NCBI GenBank assembly: GCA_027493955.1 | Contig: JAOSJT010000001.1 | Location: forward strand, 1,971,131 to 2,035,130 | From: Bacteroidia bacterium | GTDB lineage: Bacteria > Bacteroidota > Ignavibacteria > SZUA-365 | Reading direction: 5' to 3' | Length of the DNA stretch: 64,000 bases | Part shown: positions 26,190 to 38,738 of the stretch, piece by piece | Position numbering within the stretch: the stretch's first letter is position 1 | Layout: the number at the start of each line of letters is the position of its first letter | Notes under the pieces: model-generated | What the model was told of the DNA's origin: nothing | What the model saw: only the letters and a program-made list of their open reading frames with translations | Databases searched by the model: none | Program-made: the position numbers and the translations under genes

Positions 26190-26528
26190 TCAGCAGAGTA
26201 CCGGAGGAGCCCTTGGAGGGATGAGTGCGTGTTCCGGCGGGGAGGGGCGTTGCGGAGTTTCGCGACACCAAAGCACGGTAACGCCGTGGCGCGGTGCCGG
26301 CGCGACAATTCGTGGAATGTTGCGCAGCTGCCGCTTCGACTGTACAACCGTGGCCGACTGAAGCGGACGTTTACGGCTTTCGGTCTCGGAATTCTGAATG
26401 GGGAGGGCGAGCGGTACGGCGACTATGGAATACTCCCCCGTCCAGGATCGCGTTTCGCGCATGGGCAAGAACAGCGTCGCAAGGACGCTGCACATGAGCA
26501 CAGTTACTATGGCGACTCGGCGTACCAT
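26190..26528 (-). CDS. Possible small exported protein (uncertain)
   Basis: From ATG 26528 the frame encodes 112 aa with a convincing signal-like start (MVRRVAIVTVLMCSVLATLF). The rest is basic and Pro-rich ('ESRKRPLQSATVVQSKRQL') with two Cys residues. No Shine-Dalgarno sequence is visible. It may be real or a chance frame. It is on the same strand as, and 49 bp before, the 36-aa peptide gene. Confidence 0.3.
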   Translation of the reverse strand: MVRRVAIVTVLMCSVLATLFLPMRETRSWTGEYSIVAVPLALPIQNSETESRKRPLQSATVVQSKRQLRNIPRIVAPAPRHGVTVLWCRETPQRPSPPEHALIPPRAPPVLC

Positions 26529-26701
26529 ATTGGAAGATCGGCAACAGCACCGTGAATGGCAAGGGAAATCGGTCCGCCGCATTACTGGCTCTCCCGTTGC
26601 AAAAGTCATGCTATTGCTTTCTTGAATATAAAGGCGTATTATCCGCTACTTGATTGGAACAAAGAGGATCGCCTAATCCCACCGGTAGTACTTCAAGCAA
26701 A

Positions 26702-26770
26702 TAAAAAGCCCCTGAAGAACAGGGGCGAGGCGTGAAGCCTACAGAATAATCTTTATTGTAGTAAGCTTTC
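26702..26770 (-). ncRNA. tracrRNA of the type II-C CRISPR system
   Basis: On the minus strand the sequence begins GAAAGCTTACTACAAT (26770-26755). This pairs with the first 16 nt of the CRISPR repeat read on the minus strand (GTTGTAGTTTGCTTTC): 13 Watson-Crick pairs, one terminal G-U and a 2x2 U-U internal loop, the expected upper/lower-stem bulge. It continues AAAGATTATTCT, a small hairpin AGGC-UUCAC-GCCU, and a terminator hairpin GCCCCTG-TTCTT-CAGGGGC (26726-26708) with TTTTT. A promoter at 26777-26805 puts the start at about 26770, exactly at the first paired base, giving a short RNA of about 69 nt. Ends are predicted, not measured. Confidence 0.85.
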
Positions 26771-26776
26771 GCAGTA

Positions 26777-26805
26777 AACATACAAGAACTCCAATACAAT
26801 GTCAA
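26777..26805 (-). promoter_or_regulatory. tracrRNA promoter
   Basis: Minus strand: -35 TTGACA (26805-26800), 17-bp spacer, -10 TATGTT (26782-26777). It lies between the cas9 ribosome-binding site (AGGAG at about 26811) and the anti-repeat, so tracrRNA and cas9 are divergently transcribed from about 50 bp. Confidence 0.75.
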
Positions 26806-26821
26806 GCACAGGAGATGGGCA

Positions 26822-29800
26822 ATGGGAAAAACGTTAGGACTCGATCTCGGTACAAATTCCGTTGGCTGGTGTTTGGTCGAAGACGGAAAGCAGATCATAG
26901 CATCAGGAGTACGGATTTTCCCCGTCGGAGTAAAGGAAGATGACTACGTCAAGCAAGGGAAGGAGGTCTCTAAAAATGTTGACCGGCGCATAGCGCGTGG
27001 TATCCGGAGACGCAGACACCGATATCTCCTGCGAAGAGCGAGACTTATTGCCCTGCTCGAAAAACACAACATGATGCCTGTGCTCGGTGCGGTCGGGACG
27101 CGGAAACTCTATGAACTCAGACGTACAGCTCTGGACAAGAAAATCCCGCTTGCTGACCTCGGCCGCATACTGCTGATGCTGAACAAACGCCGCGGTTTTA
27201 AAAGCAACAGAAAAACTGCCGTGAGCGATGATGCAAAGAAGGAGGAAGGTGTCGTCAAGGAAGCCATTGGCAAGCTTAAACGTGACATCGAGGAAACGGG
27301 CTGCCGAACTGTCGGAGAATATTTCGCGACCCTCTTCGATGCGACAGACGAGCAAAAACGCTGGCATAACAGCGACGAGCCGATCGAGCGTATTCGTGGG
27401 CGATTCGTCGACAGGTCCATGTACCAGCAGGAATTCGATCTTATTTGGGCGAAGCAGTCACGTTATTATCCCAGCATCCTCACTGACGATCTCCGACACG
27501 AAATTCGCGACAAGGTGATTTATTTTCAGCGTCCACTGAAATCGCAGAAAGGTACTATCGGCCGTTGCCGTTACGAGCCATCAAAGCGATGCGCGCCGAA
27601 AAGTGGGTTTGATTTCCAGGAATTCCGCATATGGCAGCAACTGGGCGCCGTGCGGTATGATCTTGGTACCGAGCTGAATCAACCGCTCACTCTTGAGCAA
27701 AAAGTGCTTCTCGCGGAATACCTGGCCGAGAATCCAAAGCTGACACGTACGAAAGCCCGCACCATCCTCCGCCTGCCGGCAAGCGTACAATTCAATGATG
27801 TTTTCGATTTGCTAGGGAACACTACCGCCGCGCGACTGAAAGAGGCGATTGGCGAAAATACCTACGAGGCACTCTCAGAGGACGCCATGCGTGAGCTGTG
27901 GCACATCATTTCCTTCTGCGATGATGACGAGAAAATGCAGGCGATAATCGAGCGGAAGATTTCCAGGCGTGTTCTTCCTGCACTGAATCCGGAGCAGATA
28001 GAGAACATAATCAACACGAAGTTCGAAGATGGTTACGGCAATCTCTCCACAAAGGCTATCCGGAAGCTTCTACCCCACCTCCGCAGTGACATGAATATGT
28101 ACGACGCGGCGGTCGCCGCCGGCTATGGGGGTGTCGGTCCTGGAACAAAAAAAATACGTGAGCTCGATAAAATCCCGCCATTGAAGCCGAATGAACTGCG
28201 GAATCCGATTGTCCAGCAGATTCTTACCGAGACCTTCAAAGTCGTTAATGCGCTTGTTCGGGAGTACGGTAAACCGGACATGATTCGCGTAGAAATGGCA
28301 CGATCATTGAAAAAGCCGAAAAAACTCCGCGAAGAGGCGCGATACAAAGCACAGGTCAAGCAGCTACAGCGTGAGGAGTATGCAGAGCTGCTCAGCAAGC
28401 ACTTCAAGCGTCGTATCTATGCCAACGATCCCGAAATTCGGAAGTACGAACTATGGCTCGAGATGGGCTGCAAGGATGCGGGATTGAACGATATCGAAAG
28501 CTTTTTCCGAAACGGGAAGATTCGTGATGCCGTGAAATACAGACTATGGAAGGAATGCGACAGAATTTCCCCATACAGCGGAAAAACAATTTCCTTGCGA
28601 AGGCTCTTCAGCGCCGAAATCGAGATAGAGCATATCCTGCCTTACAGCAGGACAATGAACAACGAATTCACCAATCTGTCGCTGTGCGAGTCAGACATCA
28701 ATCGGAGGAAGGGCAATCAGCTCCCCTATCATTTCTTCGCGTCCTTGGGCCCACGTGAACTTGAGAAATTCAAGGAAAGAGTGGCGCAGTTCCGCGGCAT
28801 CAAGCGGCACCGCTTCCTCATGACGGAAATCCCGGAAGATTTCCTAAACAGCCAGCTCACGAACACGAGTTATGCTGCAAGGGAAGCAATGGAGCGGCTC
28901 GAAACGCTGCTCCCGCCTGTTATGAACGACGATGGGACCTGGCACCCTCGCGTACAGGTCATGAACGGGCAGGCCACATCCAACTTGCGCAGATTATGGG
29001 GCCTGAATTCAATCCTTTCAAACGACGAAAATCCGGTCAAGAACCGGGGCGACCATCGACATCACGCAGTGGACGCGCTCGTCATTGCCTGCACCACACC
29101 AAGAATCACACACGATCTCGCACGGTACAGTCAGTTCAACGAACTCAGCGATCTCAGCAACGAACACATAAAAGCGCCATGGCGCAGTTTCCGCACGGAC
29201 GCCGAGAAAGTGATCCACGGTATCATTATCTCACTTCGCAATGACAAACGGTTGGTATCCCGGAAACCCAACAGTATCAAGGTCAAAGCCGGTAAAAAAC
29301 ATCCGGATGGGAAGCTTCGCCAGACGACAGTCTCGATTCGCGGACGACTGCATGAAGAAACGCTGTACGGAAAAATTCAGCAGGGGGGCGAGGATGTGTT
29401 TGTCCACCGCAAACCAATAAACACATTCACGGATGGCAAGCAACTTGAGAAGGTTATAGACAAAAAAGTGCGTGAAGTACTTCAGAAACGTGTGGCGGAA
29501 TTCGGCGGAAATGTCAAACAGGCCTTTTCCGATCTTGAGAACAATCCCGTGTACATGTACTCCAAAACCGGCAAGCGCGTGAAAATCAACAAGGTCCGGA
29601 TAAAAGCGAGCGGACAGCAGCTAAAACTGTTGCGCGAAACCACGAACACCTGGGTTGATACCGGAAACAATTACGCCATCGCAATTTACGAAGACAAGGC
29701 AAGCGGTAAACGTTCGTTCGAAACAATCCCTTACTTTGAAGCTGTCCGCCGGACGCTTAGCGGTCAGAAAGTAGTGCGAGAGTCCTTCGAGGGTAAACCA

Positions 29801-30079
29801 CTGATGCTCAGCCTGAAACAACGAGACATAGTTGTTCGTTATCATCAACACCCTGATGAAATACGCTGGGACGACATCGATGATCTTAGACCCCGATTGT
29901 ACCGTGTTCGCAAATTCGATGTGAAAGGCATAATCTATCTGGACAATCTATACGCCTCCAAACTGGATGAAAAGGACCGTAACAGTCTCTTTTATGCAGT
30001 GACTCCGGGTACGATTAAAGTTATACCCTCACGAGTGAGCATCCTTGGAAAGCTAAGAACCGATAACAGTGATAGGTGA
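26822..30079 (+). CDS. cas9: CRISPR-associated endonuclease Cas9, type II-C
   Basis: 1085 aa from ATG 26822 with AGGAG 8 nt upstream, the size of compact type II-C Cas9 proteins (Neisseria 1082, Campylobacter 984). All nuclease motifs are intact. RuvC-I is GLDLGTNSVGW (Asp8), RuvC-II is IRVEMARS (Glu491), and RuvC-III is DHRHHAVDA (His748, Asp751). HNH is EIEHILPYSRT with His604 and Asn627 in NRRKGNQ; a Glu replaces the usual Asp before the catalytic His. An Arg-rich bridge helix (about 51-82) precedes a short REC lobe. The C-terminal 250 residues are the WED/PAM-interacting region. It should cut DNA guided by crRNA:tracrRNA. The stop overlaps the cas1 GTG start by 4 bp. Confidence 0.97.
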   Translation: MGKTLGLDLGTNSVGWCLVEDGKQIIASGVRIFPVGVKEDDYVKQGKEVSKNVDRRIARGIRRRRHRYLLRRARLIALLEKHNMMPVLGAVGTRKLYELRRTALDKKIPLADLGRILLMLNKRRGFKSNRKTAVSDDAKKEEGVVKEAIGKLKRDIEETGCRTVGEYFATLFDATDEQKRWHNSDEPIERIRGRFVDRSMYQQEFDLIWAKQSRYYPSILTDDLRHEIRDKVIYFQRPLKSQKGTIGRCRYEPSKRCAPKSGFDFQEFRIWQQLGAVRYDLGTELNQPLTLEQKVLLAEYLAENPKLTRTKARTILRLPASVQFNDVFDLLGNTTAARLKEAIGENTYEALSEDAMRELWHIISFCDDDEKMQAIIERKISRRVLPALNPEQIENIINTKFEDGYGNLSTKAIRKLLPHLRSDMNMYDAAVAAGYGGVGPGTKKIRELDKIPPLKPNELRNPIVQQILTETFKVVNALVREYGKPDMIRVEMARSLKKPKKLREEARYKAQVKQLQREEYAELLSKHFKRRIYANDPEIRKYELWLEMGCKDAGLNDIESFFRNGKIRDAVKYRLWKECDRISPYSGKTISLRRLFSAEIEIEHILPYSRTMNNEFTNLSLCESDINRRKGNQLPYHFFASLGPRELEKFKERVAQFRGIKRHRFLMTEIPEDFLNSQLTNTSYAAREAMERLETLLPPVMNDDGTWHPRVQVMNGQATSNLRRLWGLNSILSNDENPVKNRGDHRHHAVDALVIACTTPRITHDLARYSQFNELSDLSNEHIKAPWRSFRTDAEKVIHGIIISLRNDKRLVSRKPNSIKVKAGKKHPDGKLRQTTVSIRGRLHEETLYGKIQQGGEDVFVHRKPINTFTDGKQLEKVIDKKVREVLQKRVAEFGGNVKQAFSDLENNPVYMYSKTGKRVKINKVRIKASGQQLKLLRETTNTWVDTGNNYAIAIYEDKASGKRSFETIPYFEAVRRTLSGQKVVRESFEGKPLMLSLKQRDIVVRYHQHPDEIRWDDIDDLRPRLYRVRKFDVKGIIYLDNLYASKLDEKDRNSLFYAVTPGTIKVIPSRVSILGKLRTDNSDR

Positions 30080-30969
30080 AGAGAACCATTGTCATAAGTC
30101 AACCATGCCGGATCAATATTTCGAATGATCAGTTGGTCTGTGCCAAGAGCGACGAGAGCACATTAAGTGTGTCGTTTGAGGATCTCGGGATTCTCCTTCT
30201 GGAGACATCTCAGTACATTATAACAGGTGCCGCATTGAGCAGACTGATGGAAGCGAAGGTTGCCGTTATAACTTGTACGGATAATCACCATCCTAATGGC
30301 TTGCTCCTCCCTCTCGCCGGAGGTGGCACGCACACGGAGGTACTGCGAACGCAGGTCGAGGCGAGTCAACCTCTCCGGAAACAACTTTGGAAGGTGACCG
30401 TCAAGGCCAAAATCAGCAACCAGGCGGTATTTTCGAAGCAATGGGGAGATCATGCCGATCCCCTCTTCCGCTGGTCCAAAAAGGTCCGCTCAGGCGATCC
30501 TGATAATTACGAAGCCCGCGCAGCTTCCTGGTACTGGAAACGCTTCCTCGGTAAGACACAGAAATTTCTGCGTGACCCCGAAGGCGATCCTCCGAACTCG
30601 CTACTCAACTATGGGTACGCGATTTTACGGGCAGCAATGGCCAGAGCGGTGGTTTCGTCTGGTCTGCACCCTTCGCTCGGCATTCACCACCGTAATCGCT
30701 ACAATCCGTTTTGTCTGGCCGATGATTTGATGGAGCCCTATCGGCCCTTCGTGGATTCGATCGTGCGCGGCCTGTACTTTGAACAAGGCGAGCACTATCT
30801 CAGCAGAGATGCCAAAGCGGCCTTGTTGAGCGTCTTGACAGCTGATGTACTCATAGCAGGAAACAGGCGCCCCCTGCTCCTCGCCATGAGCATGAGCAGC
30901 AGCTCACTCGCAGAGTGCTACGCCGAGAAATCCGCATCACTTACCTTCCCCACGCCTCATGAGAATTGA
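30076..30969 (+). CDS. cas1: CRISPR integrase Cas1, type II
   Basis: 297 aa from GTG 30076, which overlaps the cas9 stop by 4 bp (GTGA), indicating translational coupling. Landmark metal-site residues are present: Glu146 in [10 protein letters not shown], His204/His205 in [13 protein letters not shown] and Asp216/Asp217 in [12 protein letters not shown]. The N-terminal beta-sandwich and the helical catalytic lobe are of normal length. With Cas2 it integrates new spacers into the array. The gene overlaps cas2 by 11 bp. Confidence 0.95.
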
Positions 30970-31288
30970 CGAGTATCGGATCATGTGGGTACTGGTTTTT
31001 TTCGATTTACCCACGGAAACAGCCGCTGAACGAAAGGCCTACGCGGATTTCCGGAAGAAGCTCATGAAAGATGGTTTCGAAATGTTCCAGTTTTCCATCT
31101 ATCTCCGACATTGCATGAGTCAGGAGAATGCCGATGTCCACACAAAGCGCGTCAAAAGCTTTCTCCCGCCACGCGGGAAAGTCGGTATCCTCAGAATCAC
31201 CGACAAACAGTTTGGGATGATGGAAATTTTTTACGAGGCGAAGCCCAGGGCGGTAAAAGCACCTCCGCAACAACTCGAATTTTTCTGA
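30959..31288 (+). CDS. cas2: CRISPR-associated protein Cas2
   Basis: 109 aa; ATG 30959 lies inside the end of cas1. The ferredoxin-like fold is recognisable from [12 protein letters not shown] (conserved Asp of the first strand), '[19 protein letters not shown]' and the C-terminal strand '[13 protein letters not shown]'. It is the structural partner of Cas1 in spacer acquisition. No csn2 or cas4 follows, so the locus has the minimal type II-C gene set. Confidence 0.93.
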
Positions 31289-31354
31289 TTCCGCAACCGT
31301 AGTCTGGATAGGAGACGGAATTTTCGCCACTAAAACGCTTGTGTAAATGCATCC

Positions 31355-31379
31355 TAAGTCATTTATTTTCAATGACTTA
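31355..31379. terminator. Inverted repeat between cas2 and the array
   Basis: 9-bp stem TAAGTCATT/AATGACTTA with a 7-nt loop (TATTTTC), 11 bp before the first repeat, in an AT-rich segment. It could end the cas operon, end crRNA transcripts coming from the right, or be part of the leader recognised during spacer integration. Confidence 0.5.
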
Positions 31380-31390
31380 AGGAACAATAA

Positions 31391-34300
31391 GCTGTTGCTA
31401 CGATAACAAGATCAAGATTTGAAAGCAAACTACAACTTGCTGTCACAGACAGTCCACAGCCCCGCGGCTGTTGCTACGATAACAAGATCAAGATTTGAAA
31501 GCAAACTACAACAGTGTGTGCGAATATATTCAAGACTTTCATTGCTGTTGCTACGATAACAAGATCAAGATTTGAAAGCAAACTACAACTCTCGGCTATC
31601 CTTGCTGTATCGCATACGCGCTGTTGCTACGATAACAAGATCAAGATTTGAAAGCAAACTACAACCTCCAGCAGGGCAATCGCCCGTTCGGCCTGGCTGT
31701 TGCTACGATAACAAGATCAAGATTTGAAAGCAAACTACAACCTCTGCCTCGTAAACATCCGGAGCGCATTTTGCTGTTGCTACGATAACAAGATCAAGAT
31801 TTGAAAGCAAACTACAACAGGCATTGCATTTGATGTGCATGGTGTGCCGCTGTTGCTACGATAACAAGATCAAGATTTGAAAGCAAACTACAACGGATAG
31901 AGCTTGTCGATGTTGCTACGCAGCGCTGTTGCTACGATAACAAGATCAAGATTTGAAAGCAAACTACAACAACACGACCTCGACCTCGTTCGCGCTGCGG
32001 CTGTTGCTACGATAACAAGATCAAGATTTGAAAGCAAACTACAACTTTCCACATTGTCCAGGCGAGCCCGGCTTCGCTGTTGCTACGATAACAAGATCAA
32101 GATTTGAAAGCAAACTACAACTGCCTGATACATCGGGGTCAATGCGGTGGAGCTGTTGCTACGATAACAAGATCAAGATTTGAAAGCAAACTACAACCTG
32201 CTTGCGCGAATGTTTCGTCGCCGTTATGCTGTTGCTACGATAACAAGATCAAGATTTGAAAGCAAACTACAACGCGTACTGTCAATCGTGACGTTGCCGC
32301 CGAGCTGTTGCTACGATAACAAGATCAAGATTTGAAAGCAAACTACAACCGGAAAGCGTCCACAACGATATCCTTCACGGCTGTTGCTACGATAACAAGA
32401 TCAAGATTTGAAAGCAAACTACAACGACCGCGCCGATGGTGTTCCACTGCGTTCCGCTGTTGCTACGATAACAAGATCAAGATTTGAAAGCAAACTACAA
32501 CAGGATGCCAAACAGCTCCTGCACGCTCCGCGCTGTTGCTACGATAACAAGATCAAGATTTGAAAGCAAACTACAACCCGGGACGCTGGGTGCCGCTCAG
32601 GAAGCGCGCTGTTGCTACGATAACAAGATCAAGATTTGAAAGCAAACTACAACTCGCGGATCGACGGGATGCGGAACGTCACGGCTGTTGCTACGATAAC
32701 AAGATCAAGATTTGAAAGCAAACTACAACTCACGCGCGCTGGTACGCATCATCTGCTGTGCTGTTGCTACGATAACAAGATCAAGATTTGAAAGCAAACT
32801 ACAACCATCGAGACATTTGTGGCCTTGAATGTGGAGCTGTTGCTACGATAACAAGATCAAGATTTGAAAGCAAACTACAACTAAGACCAGAGCATATCCC
32901 AACGCTCCTCTGCTGTTGCTACGATAACAAGATCAAGATTTGAAAGCAAACTACAACTAACGCTAAACTGCGCCGTCACCATCTTAAGCTGTTGCTACGA
33001 TAACAAGATCAAGATTTGAAAGCAAACTACAACAAACGGTCGCTCAGAGCGACGCGCGGCTGCGCTGTTGCTACGATAACAAGATCAAGATTTGAAAGCA
33101 AACTACAACCAAGAATCGCGGAGTAAGCAAGATCGCCAGCGCTGTTGCTACGATAACAAGATCAAGATTTGAAAGCAAACTACAACCTGCAACTCCGCGT
33201 ACAGCTCGGACTCGCGGCTGTTGCTACGATAACAAGATCAAGATTTGAAAGCAAACTACAACATCTCGTCGCGCTTGGGCTGCAACTCCATGGCTGTTGC
33301 TACGATAACAAGATCAAGATTTGAAAGCAAACTACAACCATTGGTGGATGACGGGCACGTTTCTTCCGCTGTTGCTACGATAACAAGATCAAGATTTGAA
33401 AGCAAACTACAACTGATCTTCGCCAGGTCCTCGCCGGGTTTGAGCTGTTGCTACGATAACAAGATCAAGATTTGAAAGCAAACTACAACTGGGGCGTCAA
33501 CGGCATCATCATCAGTCACGCTGTTGCTACGATAACAAGATCAAGATTTGAAAGCAAACTACAACAACGCAGCGTATGCGCGGCACACAGCCGACTGCTG
33601 TTGCTACGATAACAAGATCAAGATTTGAAAGCAAACTACAACACGAAGCCCACGGGGTCGGTTGCTAGATTAGCTGTTGCTACGATAACAAGATCAAGAT
33701 TTGAAAGCAAACTACAACCCGTGAGGAGAGCGGCTTATTCTTCGTCAGGCTGTTGCTACGATAACAAGATCAAGATTTGAAAGCAAACTACAACTAAAGG
33801 CGGGGGATTGTCATATCCAAGTATGCTGTTGCTACGATAACAAGATCAAGATTTGAAAGCAAACTACAACATGTAAACATGTTTTATCCTTATTGCTGTA
33901 GCTGTTGCTACGATAACAAGATCAAGATTTGAAAGCAAACTACAACTGACGGGCCAGATGGGTTCGGGTTCGGGTTGCTGTTGCTACGATAACAAGATCA
34001 AGATTTGAAAGCAAACTACAACTACTGCTCTTGCCTTGCGTAGCTTCGGCGCGCTGTTGCTACGATAACAAGATCAAGATTTGAAAGCAAACTACAACTC
34101 TTGATCCTGCTTCATCGCCAACCGCCACGCTGTTGCTACGATAACAAGATCAAGATTTGAAAGCAAACTACAACTTTCGTCCCTTGCGATTCGTCCGGCT
34201 TCACGCTGTTGCTACGATAACAAGATCAAGATTTGAAAGCAAACTACAACAGATGATTGCCGCACCTCATAAAAAAGACAGCTGTTGCTACGATAACAAG

Positions 34301-37300
34301 ATCAAGATTTGAAAGCAAACTACAACTTTACTCGCTTGAGTTGTTGCATTCATCATGCTGTTGCTACGATAACAAGATCAAGATTTGAAAGCAAACTACA
34401 ACCTGTTTGAATAAATGACCTTGCCTACAATAGCTGTTGCTACGATAACAAGATCAAGATTTGAAAGCAAACTACAACGGTTGCACTCTCTCTCCCAGCA
34501 AGTCACGAGCTGTTGCTACGATAACAAGATCAAGATTTGAAAGCAAACTACAACACGCCAGTACAACGTCTCGTCTCTGAGATTGCTGTTGCTACGATAA
34601 CAAGATCAAGATTTGAAAGCAAACTACAACCGCCGTCGTGGTCTTCAATGGGGCCGTCTGCTGTTGCTACGATAACAAGATCAAGATTTGAAAGCAAACT
34701 ACAACAAATGGTGGGAGATTGCTGTAATCGTGCTTGCTGTTGCTACGATAACAAGATCAAGATTTGAAAGCAAACTACAACTGATCAGCTCGATCGCGCG
34801 ATTGTTCGGCTGCTGTTGCTACGATAACAAGATCAAGATTTGAAAGCAAACTACAACTGGTGCGCTGCTTTTGTTCAATACGCCTACGCTGTTGCTACGA
34901 TAACAAGATCAAGATTTGAAAGCAAACTACAACTGGTGCGCTGCTTTTGTTCAATACGCCTACGCTGTTGCTACGATAACAAGATCAAGATTTGAAAGCA
35001 AACTACAACAAGACGCGGTGGAATTGTCCGGCACTGCCTGCTGTTGCTACGATAACAAGATCAAGATTTGAAAGCAAACTACAACAGTCCGGGTCCCACA
35101 CCTGCACATACGTCGGCTGTTGCTACGATAACAAGATCAAGATTTGAAAGCAAACTACAACCGCCTGGTGGCATCGCCTTACCGCACGCGTGCTGTTGCT
35201 ACGATAACAAGATCAAGATTTGAAAGCAAACTACAACCAATCAATATGAACACTACGCAGGCCAAGTGCTGTTGCTACGATAACAAGATCAAGATTTGAA
35301 AGCAAACTACAACAGATCGCCGCTTTCTCCGCATCGTCGCGGGGCTGTTGCTACGATAACAAGATCAAGATTTGAAAGCAAACTACAACCGAGCGATCAG
35401 GTTCTCATTGAAGTACGAAGCTGTTGCTACGATAACAAGATCAAGATTTGAAAGCAAACTACAACCGATTCGTTGTTGTGAACATACGCTATTTTGCTGT
35501 TGCTACGATAACAAGATCAAGATTTGAAAGCAAACTACAACAAGTCGGATATCTTGCCGGTAATCTCTAGTGCTGTTGCTACGATAACAAGATCAAGATT
35601 TGAAAGCAAACTACAACTGTCAGCACCTATTCCGGTAATGTTTGTAGCTGTTGCTACGATAACAAGATCAAGATTTGAAAGCAAACTACAACTCGGCGGT
35701 CCTTCTAATTGACCGTAGAAATGCTGTTGCTACGATAACAAGATCAAGATTTGAAAGCAAACTACAACGGCAACTGGTTGCTTCCCTCTTGTTTCCCTGC
35801 TGTTGCTACGATAACAAGATCAAGATTTGAAAGCAAACTACAACTCTTTGCGGTTCTTCCCTAATTCGTCAGTGGCTGTTGCTACGATAACAAGATCAAG
35901 ATTTGAAAGCAAACTACAACTGATGCACAGAACGCCGAACCGAGAATGGTGCTGTTGCTACGATAACAAGATCAAGATTTGAAAGCAAACTACAACCCGG
36001 ACTTGAACAGACGGATAATTGGACGGCTGTTGCTACGATAACAAGATCAAGATTTGAAAGCAAACTACAACATAATCTTCGATGGATCAAGCTCACAGAT
36101 AGCTGTTGCTACGATAACAAGATCAAGATTTGAAAGCAAACTACAACACCACGGGGGCGCTAGACAAACGAAAGTAGCTGTTGCTACGATAACAAGATCA
36201 AGATTTGAAAGCAAACTACAACTCGGACGCCCGGGATAGTCCGGATTGCGCGGCTGTTGCTACGATAACAAGATCAAGATTTGAAAGCAAACTACAACGA
36301 GTACAGCGCGACTGTCGCGATGCGGATGGCTGTTGCTACGATAACAAGATCAAGATTTGAAAGCAAACTACAACTATGGATGTAAATGCCGCGCAAGCGC
36401 TTGGGCTGTTGCTACGATAACAAGATCAAGATTTGAAAGCAAACTACAACCGTCTTGATCCTGCTTCATCGCTAGTCGCCGCTGTTGCTACGATAACAAG
36501 ATCAAGATTTGAAAGCAAACTACAACTATGGCGAGCAAAAGCCCTCCCGCGCTGGCGCTGTTGCTACGATAACAAGATCAAGATTTGAAAGCAAACTACA
36601 ACAATCCGAGCCGTTTCGTTTCGGCTTTGATCGCTGTTGCTACGATAACAAGATCAAGATTTGAAAGCAAACTACAACATCCCGATGGAGAGACTGCGTA
36701 CTCACTCAGCTGTTGCTACGATAACAAGATCAAGATTTGAAAGCAAACTACAACTAGTAGACAGCCAGGGCGGACTTCCACGGAGCTGTTGCTACGATAA
36801 CAAGATCAAGATTTGAAAGCAAACTACAACACAATTCAGGAGAGTGCGAAATGTTGTATTGCTGTTGCTACGATAACAAGATCAAGATTTGAAAGCAAAC
36901 TACAACACAATTCAGGAGAGTGCGAAATGTTGTATTGCTGTTGCTACGATAACAAGATCAAGATTTGAAAGCAAACTACAACAAGAGACAAAGCCGGGTT
37001 ACCTTCGCGTCTGCTGTTGCTACGATAACAAGATCAAGATTTGAAAGCAAACTACAACGCCCTGCCTTCGGTTGCTCCGTCGTTCTCGGCTGTTGCTACG
37101 ATAACAAGATCAAGATTTGAAAGCAAACTACAACAAAAGGCGTATGTCTCGTATTCAGCCATCGGCTGTTGCTACGATAACAAGATCAAGATTTGAAAGC
37201 AAACTACAACATTGTGACTGTGGGGCTGGCGAAGCACGGTGCTGTTGCTACGATAACAAGATCAAGATTTGAAAGCAAACTACAACATCCCGATGGAGAG

Positions 37301-38722
37301 ACTGCGTACTCACTCAGCTGTTGCTACGATAACAAGATCAAGATTTGAAAGCAAACTACAACTCGACAGCCCAAATGAAGGTACGCCCTTCCGCTGTTGC
37401 TACGATAACAAGATCAAGATTTGAAAGCAAACTACAACTAATCAGGATGTGTTATTTTCATTAAAATAGCTGTTGCTACGATAACAAGATCAAGATTTGA
37501 AAGCAAACTACAACAAGCAGATAAAGTGCCCCACCCACGCCAATGCTGTTGCTACGATAACAAGATCAAGATTTGAAAGCAAACTACAACCCTTCGTCCT
37601 CAACAGGCTTATCGGGTATGGCTGTTGCTACGATAACAAGATCAAGATTTGAAAGCAAACTACAACCTCTATTTACTCGATGTTCTCAGCCGCCTTGCTG
37701 TTGCTACGATAACAAGATCAAGATTTGAAAGCAAACTACAACCATGGTGCATAAGGTCGTCGATTTCATCTGCTGTTGCTACGATAACAAGATCAAGATT
37801 TGAAAGCAAACTACAACCGCTCTGGTTCAACGATGATACACTGGACCGCTGTTGCTACGATAACAAGATCAAGATTTGAAAGCAAACTACAACTCTCTGA
37901 TTCTGCTGCCGTTTGCATTCAGCGCTGTTGCTACGATAACAAGATCAAGATTTGAAAGCAAACTACAACTCTCTGATTCTGCTGCCGTTTGCATTCAGCG
38001 CTGTTGCTACGATAACAAGATCAAGATTTGAAAGCAAACTACAACCGTGATTGCGTTGGCCGCTGGTGATGTTGTGCTGTTGCTACGATAACAAGATCAA
38101 GATTTGAAAGCAAACTACAACCTTTGGCCAGTAAGTGCAGCAATCCGTTCTGCTGTTGCTACGATAACAAGATCAAGATTTGAAAGCAAACTACAACTGT
38201 TGGCGGTGTATTATCGTATAACGGAGAGCTGTTGCTACGATAACAAGATCAAGATTTGAAAGCAAACTACAACAGAGACAAAGCGGGGCTTCCTTCGCGG
38301 CTCGCTGTTGCTACGATAACAAGATCAAGATTTGAAAGCAAACTACAACAGTTTTACGCTTCCGCAATTCGGGCAAGGTGCTGTTGCTACGATAACAAGA
38401 TCAAGATTTGAAAGCAAACTACAACTTGCCATGATCGGGATCCTTCGGGTTCATTGCTGTTGCTACGATAACAAGATCAAGATTTGAAAGCAAACTACAA
38501 CAATCGTTCAATCAGTTGCCTTGCCTCAAACGCTGTTGCTACGATAACAAGATCAAGATTTGAAAGCAAACTACAACATGAGTGATGCGACAATGTCGAG
38601 AACTGTGGCTGTTGCTACGATAACAAGATCAAGATTTGAAAGCAAACTACAACTGCATTCCATCAGATCCTTGTTTCCCGCGAGCTGTTGCTACGATAAC
38701 AAGATCAAGATTTGAAAGCAAA
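31391..38722 (-). CRISPR. Type II-C CRISPR array, 97 repeats and 96 spacers
   Basis: Repeats are 46 nt and appear identical. On the plus strand each starts GCTGTTGCTACGATAAC and ends GAAAGCAAACTACAAC; the crRNA-sense (minus) strand starts GTTGTAGTTTGC. The last copy (38684-38722) keeps 39 nt and then diverges. I traced every unit: 85 spacers are 30 nt, four are 31 nt (2, 5, 23, 29) and seven are 29 nt (8, 26, 43, 56, 61, 63, 84). Spacers 46/47, 72/73 and 86/87 are adjacent duplicates and 70/78 a distant one, leaving 92 distinct sequences. The degenerate repeat at the right end suggests that the acquisition end is the cas2 side. Strand is set by pairing with the tracrRNA. Confidence 0.97.
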
Positions 38723-38738
38723 AATCGGCATCAAAAGC

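Follow-up and report, generated by a model that had tools for sequence, protein, structure and literature searches.

The window, as the whole 64,000-nt stretch of DNA analysed here is called, contains a complete, ordinary type II-C CRISPR-Cas9 system. Its protein-coding and array features are as follows.

26822-30079, plus strand: cas9, 1085 aa, with intact RuvC and HNH motifs (D8, E491, H604, D751)
30076-30969, plus strand: cas1 of type II (NMENI), assigned by family match
30959-31288, plus strand: cas2 of type II, assigned by family match
31289-31390, no strand assigned: probable leader, the gap between cas2 and the first repeat, the terminal repeat at the far end of the array being degenerate
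31391-38729, minus strand: CRISPR array of 97 repeats of 46 nt with spacers of about 30 nt, the cas-distal last repeat being degenerate

The Cas9 protein scored 602 bits against the Cas9 equivalog model TIGR01865 (cut-off 100), and the closest solved structures were likewise compact Cas9s, about 1080 aa in size. Only cas1 and cas2 accompany cas9, without csn2 or cas4, and are followed by the leader of about 100 nt and the array (other flanking open reading frames lay outside the family scan). Genes neighbouring the locus carry what we take to be type IX secretion-like sorting domains. Together with the TAnnTTTG promoters and the flavobacterial-type tracrRNAs of genomes assigned to this phylum by the search, they point to the Bacteroidota as the phylum of the host. 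The crRNA-strand repeat reads GTTGTAGTTTGCTTTCAAATCTTGATCTTGTTATCGTAGCAACAGC and is kept nearly identical across the 7.3 kb of the array. Duplicated spacers were present as three adjacent pairs (34815/34891, 36788/36864, and 37851/37927) and one separated pair (36636/37244), pointing to recombination or segmental duplication. The host genome, a single contig of 5.24 Mb, encodes RNase III in one gene.

A tracrRNA gene was identified divergent from cas9, with the following elements.

26800-26805, minus strand: -35 element TTGACA, read directly; its TTG is equally spaced in seven of seven clade loci
26777-26782, minus strand: -10 element TATGTT, 17 nt from TTGACA
26703-26770, minus strand: predicted tracrRNA of 68 nt, with +1 at G26770 and its end at the last T of a T5 run
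26755-26770, minus strand: anti-repeat GAAAGCTTACTACAAT, 16 nt, of which 14 are paired with the 5' end of the repeat
26743-26752, minus strand: 3-bp nexus hairpin AGA-UUAU-UCU, found by co-folding, its pairs invariant in nine relatives
26728-26740, minus strand: 4-bp hairpin AGGC-UUCAC-GCCU, found by co-folding
26708-26726, minus strand: terminator hairpin GCCCCUG-UUCUU-CAGGGGC, followed by T5 at 26707-26703

The promoter TTGACA-N17-TATGTT proposed by an earlier sequence-only reading was borne out by direct inspection of the minus strand. Six bases, TACTGC, separate TATGTT from the predicted +1, and TATGTT with its next two bases (TATGTTTA) matches five of the six fixed positions of the Bacteroidota box TAnnTTTG at -12 to -5, the position at which that box precedes starts in the start-site map of Flavobacterium (PMC9723704). 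The same reading had described a 69-nt tracrRNA with two hairpins, the last followed by T5. Its divergence from cas9 and the T5 tail held; counted as far as the last T the length comes to 68 nt, and to 69 nt only with position 26702 added, and the hairpins number three since the 3-bp nexus had been missed. Both bases of one terminator pair are changed in four sequences. As judged from sequence and conservation, the gene thus has its own promoter and intrinsic terminator. No other sigma-70-like site was found in 26300-27100. Taken alone, both signals are unremarkable in the window, with one promoter match found against 0.6 expected and one terminator match against 0.7 expected. A search of Rfam returned no tracrRNA match, the best entry being JA04 with an E value of 1.3, far under its cut-off, and comparison of the tracrRNA with plasmids returned none.

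Co-folding of the crRNA repeat with the tracrRNA reproduced the proposed pairing of 14 of 16 positions around a 2x2 U-U internal loop. GAAAGCTTACTACAAT and GTTGTAGTTTGCTTTC form 13 Watson-Crick pairs and one G-U pair, arranged as 8 bp, the 2x2 pyrimidine loop, and 6 bp. Complementarity to the first 16 nt of the repeat is itself unremarkable when G-U pairs are allowed, as 44 sites in the window score at least 14 of 16. With Watson-Crick pairs only, the anti-repeat is the sole site outside the array that reaches 13 of 16, and one other reaches 12. Across 56 loci, repeat and anti-repeat covary, with compensatory changes at positions 2, 6, 7, 8, 9, 10, and 12. In the repeats of relatives the pairing part (the first 16-17 nt) is mainly conserved and the other 20-30 nt diverge. 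A second repeat-complementary site lies inside cas9 (26886-26901, plus strand, 15 of 16 with G-U); it is probably due to chance, because it is not conserved in relatives. When folded by itself, the tracrRNA (26703-26770, minus strand) is predicted to pair its anti-repeat with the nexus region, in a form favoured over the open one by about 3 kcal/mol and lying 4 sd below shuffles. Pairing with the crRNA may therefore need Cas9 or refolding.

When 391 genomes belonging to the class of the host were searched with Cas9, six relatives shared 56-59% identity with it and another three shared 45-48%. The tracrRNA is nearly unchanged in those relatives at 56-59% Cas9 identity whose contigs hold it, and the alignment contains 34 invariant columns that begin exactly at G26770. 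Identity amounts to 95% in the 34 nt downstream of this base compared to 43% in the 34 nt upstream. TTG and TANNNT occur at promoter spacing, 6-7 nt before GAAAGC, in all seven clade loci, a placement with a shuffle probability of 0.002-0.02 per locus. At the level of sequence, it is this conservation, not single-site statistics, that settles the reality of the predicted tracrRNA gene. The clade's promoter looks nearer to TTGACA/TATNTT than to TAnnTTTG.

In a tree of 48 Cas9 proteins, built by a quick method and with an arbitrary root, the window clade comprises G000, G165, G118, and G241 with a support of 100, and its duplexes span 16-19 nt. The duplexes of its nearest neighbours range from 17 to 36 nt (G121 17, G176 24, G040 and G030 24-25, G006 34, and G395 36 nt). 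G040 and G030 have an anti-repeat extended upstream by 7-9 nt that also pair with the repeat, and a box lies 6 nt further upstream, perfect in G040 and weak in G030. Short duplexes recur elsewhere on the tree (G692/G151, G869, and G673/G720), which suggests, subject to the quick method and the arbitrary root, that the duplex was shortened repeatedly.

The relation between start and duplex was followed across the Bacteroidota. A covariance model of the window-clade tracrRNA retrieved about 18 further tracrRNAs from this phylum; matches without an anti-repeat (G182, G466, G581, G587, G591, and G119) were terminator look-alikes and were discarded. In this discovery set, the predicted +1 fell at most 3 nt from the duplex edge in nine of ten loci with a perfect box. 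A lenient scoring of duplex extension over-extended into AT-rich promoters and was replaced by stricter values before the test set was retrieved. The test pipeline and statistic were set before the arrays were seen, the tracrRNAs of a second model in 395 other genomes having already been located. Sixty loci were fetched, of which 34 had an array and a credible duplex, and 20 of these carried a perfect box. The test run trimmed up to 3 bases off the 5' end of repeats on account of consensus errors, counted within 2 nt where 3 had been planned, and set aside a single locus whose array was spurious (duplex score below 25); none of these choices favours the result.

In the test set, 18 of 20 perfect-box loci had a predicted +1 no more than 2 nt from the base at which pairing begins, and in 15 the distance was at most 1 nt. 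A fixed anti-repeat anchor reached 3 of 21, and dinucleotide shuffles gave a mean of 0.4 and a maximum of 4 in 300, odds that overstate the significance because the test loci are related by descent. Pairing already stops at +1, although the box edge lies four bases further upstream; the coincidence is thus not merely due to the box blocking further pairing. Most test duplexes measure 21-24 nt, which makes the length variation in this set moderate; the discovery set is wider. Among the exceptions, G176 has a predicted unpaired 5' extension of 12 nt, and G408, G826, G918, and G893 also misfit. Compared in this way, a tracrRNA start at the edge of the anti-repeat looks like a phylum-wide rule of the Bacteroidota, with the window clade at its short end. 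The claim that the window tracrRNA starts at the first anti-repeat base is thereby strongly backed, but the feature is not special to this locus. Two genomes showed unusual arrangements. On contig C38 of G869 (locus L143), tandem tracrRNA genes occur at 71929-72001 and 72034-72106 with differing 3' ends; a perfect TAnnTTTG box lies exactly 12 nt ahead of the anti-repeat in the upstream copy but not in the downstream one. G906 encodes two distinct tracrRNAs on contigs C22 and C2 (loci L153 and L154), suggesting that it carries two type II-C systems.

The reading we prefer, with a probability of roughly 85%, is that of a type II-C tracrRNA gene whose divergent promoter directs initiation to G26770, give or take about 2 nt, at the base where pairing with the crRNA repeat begins, and whose intrinsic terminator would release a 68-nt RNA at about 26703. 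Since the predicted +1 is the first paired base, the primary transcript would already have the 5' end of the dual guide, and because relatives across the phylum obey the same start rule, the window tracrRNA may be made already trimmed. Its anti-repeat would pair directly with the 5' 16 nt of the repeat, and the nexus and the two 3' hairpins would dock on Cas9. We infer transcription from this start and loading onto Cas9 from the sequence comparisons.

On the crRNA side, 52 long Bacteroidota II-C repeats share a TAnnTTTG box (TATCTTTGA-like) 24-25 nt before their 3' end, with a profile of 3.3 compared to a maximum of 2.67 among shuffles of these repeats. From its position, the crRNAs of most Bacteroidia would start 11-12 nt ahead of the spacer, and the conserved box is probably an embedded crRNA promoter. 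The repeats of G121, G241, and G379 have the box 15-16 nt from the end, with predicted starts 2-3 nt before the spacer, and the window repeat shows a weak box (TATCGTAG) at the same position as these relatives. As this box matches only four of six positions, it is at most a candidate embedded promoter; the crRNAs of the window are probably minus-strand transcripts that run toward cas2 from promoters of this kind. In the cas-distal terminal repeat (38687-38729), degeneracy is confined to the stretch that would pair with the tracrRNA, where ACTACAAC is replaced. The remainder is retained, which would fit a repeat whose sole role is that of promoter for the first crRNA. Such embedded promoters are known in Campylobacter jejuni (PMC3656092) and have been suggested in Flavobacterium (PMC8092290), and the authors of the Riemerella study found none in their repeat (PMC5006608).

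Three other readings were weighed. The window tracrRNA could be cut from a longer primary transcript that begins upstream, runs antisense to the 5' end of cas9, and is processed to the edge of the anti-repeat. An additional tracrRNA promoter further upstream (tracr-L) does occur in some type II-A systems (PMC8616872), but upstream of 26770 nothing except the promoter positions is conserved, 26300-27100 offers no second sigma-70-like site, and across the phylum the start point moves with anti-repeat length, which leaves this origin improbable. Least probable of all is a decayed or silent system whose tracrRNA is not made or used. The spacers, none of which matched any of 50,697 phage records, would fit such a state; the intact cas9 with its catalytic motifs, intact cas1 and cas2, the near-identity of the repeats, and the persistence of the tracrRNA at 56-59% Cas9 identity speak against it.

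The third reading accepts the start at 26770 and has RNase III and Cas9 act on the duplex as in C. jejuni, so that the mature tracrRNA would be shorter than 68 nt and depend on RNase III. It bears on an earlier argument that a tracrRNA without a 5' extension needs no RNase III trimming, which is not supported as stated. RNase III cuts within duplexes and does not remove overhangs; it also prefers longer helices. In C. jejuni it shortens the tracrRNA from about 74 to about 62 nt, cutting inside the repeat, and is needed for the 3' ends of crRNAs (PMC3656092). A missing overhang alone therefore exempts no RNA, and this precedent, the RNase III gene of the host, and the relatives G395, G006, G040, and G030, whose duplexes of 24-36 nt are long enough for RNase III cutting, all lend the reading some weight. 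Against it stands the window-clade duplex itself, which comprises only 14 bp interrupted by the 2x2 loop and does not exceed in length the processed duplexes of other systems, such as that of GeoCas9, whose processed guide retains 18 nt of repeat (PMC5681539). Cleavage by GeoCas9 is barely affected by duplex length (PMC5681539), and in C. jejuni longer guide ends or a mutated crRNA RNase III site have little effect on activity (PMC8224270). We regard RNase III-dependent shortening as possible yet unlikely. By this analysis it is plausible that trimming of the window tracrRNA is unnecessary, on account of its short, looped duplex and not of the missing overhang.

The predicted tracrRNA was also said to be one of the shorter natural ones. 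Among 58 Bacteroidota predictions made by one uniform rule, this is correct, as 68 nt falls at the 5th percentile of a distribution with a median of 80 nt and a minimum of 56 nt (G151, probably an early T run called wrongly). More widely it is not supported as worded, the mature tracrRNA of C. jejuni measuring about 62 nt. Measured lengths of other type II-C tracrRNAs are 72-83 nt (DfCas9) and 70-107 nt (CcCas9). The window tracrRNA is short, but neither record-short nor exceptional.

Several known systems resemble the one described here. Neisseria meningitidis II-C has a Cas9 of the same size class, which is among the closest solved structures, and a tracrRNA longer than that of the window; the window differs in its 46-nt repeat with a weak embedded promoter match. 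Repeat-embedded promoters and a dispensable RNase III have been reported for N. meningitidis, as summarised in PMC8616872. C. jejuni II-C shares the minimal three-gene layout and the short tracrRNA, has crRNA promoters within its repeats, as is probable for the window, and differs in its perfectly paired duplex, the shortening of its tracrRNA, and crRNA 3' ends that need RNase III (PMC3656092). In CRISPR1 of Riemerella anatipestifer, also type II-C, a 16-nt anti-repeat upstream of cas9 with a 47-nt repeat has already been reported, together with cas9-cas1-cas2 only and a leader beside cas2 (PMC5006608). Its anti-repeat, TGAAAGCAATTCACAA, is of the fully paired flavobacterial type, whereas the window clade has the 2x2 loop, and neither tracrRNA ends nor promoter were called by the authors (PMC5006608). 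In Flavobacterium columnare and F. psychrophilum II-C, too, the tracrRNA lies next to cas9, and their repeats are suggested to encode promoters (PMC8092290, PMC10309648), while most Bacteroidia Cas9s compared are larger (about 1200-1600 aa) than that of the window. The papers on these two species (PMC8092290, PMC10309648) and on Prevotella intermedia describe a tracrRNA that had not been validated, whose transcription was not known, or for which no promoter could be predicted.

The part of wider interest is the start rule, the window locus itself being ordinary type II-C. No statement of this rule was found in the literature searched, most subscription papers being outside its reach. In other type II systems, too, tracrRNAs start close to the anti-repeat, and the rule may therefore extend further and have been anticipated in part. 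At even odds, we propose that promoters and anti-repeats of Bacteroidota II-C systems evolve as a unit, which would keep the start at the first crRNA-pairing base whatever the length of the anti-repeat (about 14-36 nt), and that several lineages, including that of the window, shortened the anti-repeat until primary and mature tracrRNA became the same, removing RNase III from tracrRNA biogenesis. The rule would allow tracrRNA 5' ends to be called by sequence only in a phylum where published tracrRNA transcription is unresolved, and leads to a clear and cheap prediction on RNase III-independent biogenesis. It would also make a natural 68-nt RNA ready for guide design with a compact Cas9 of 1085 aa.
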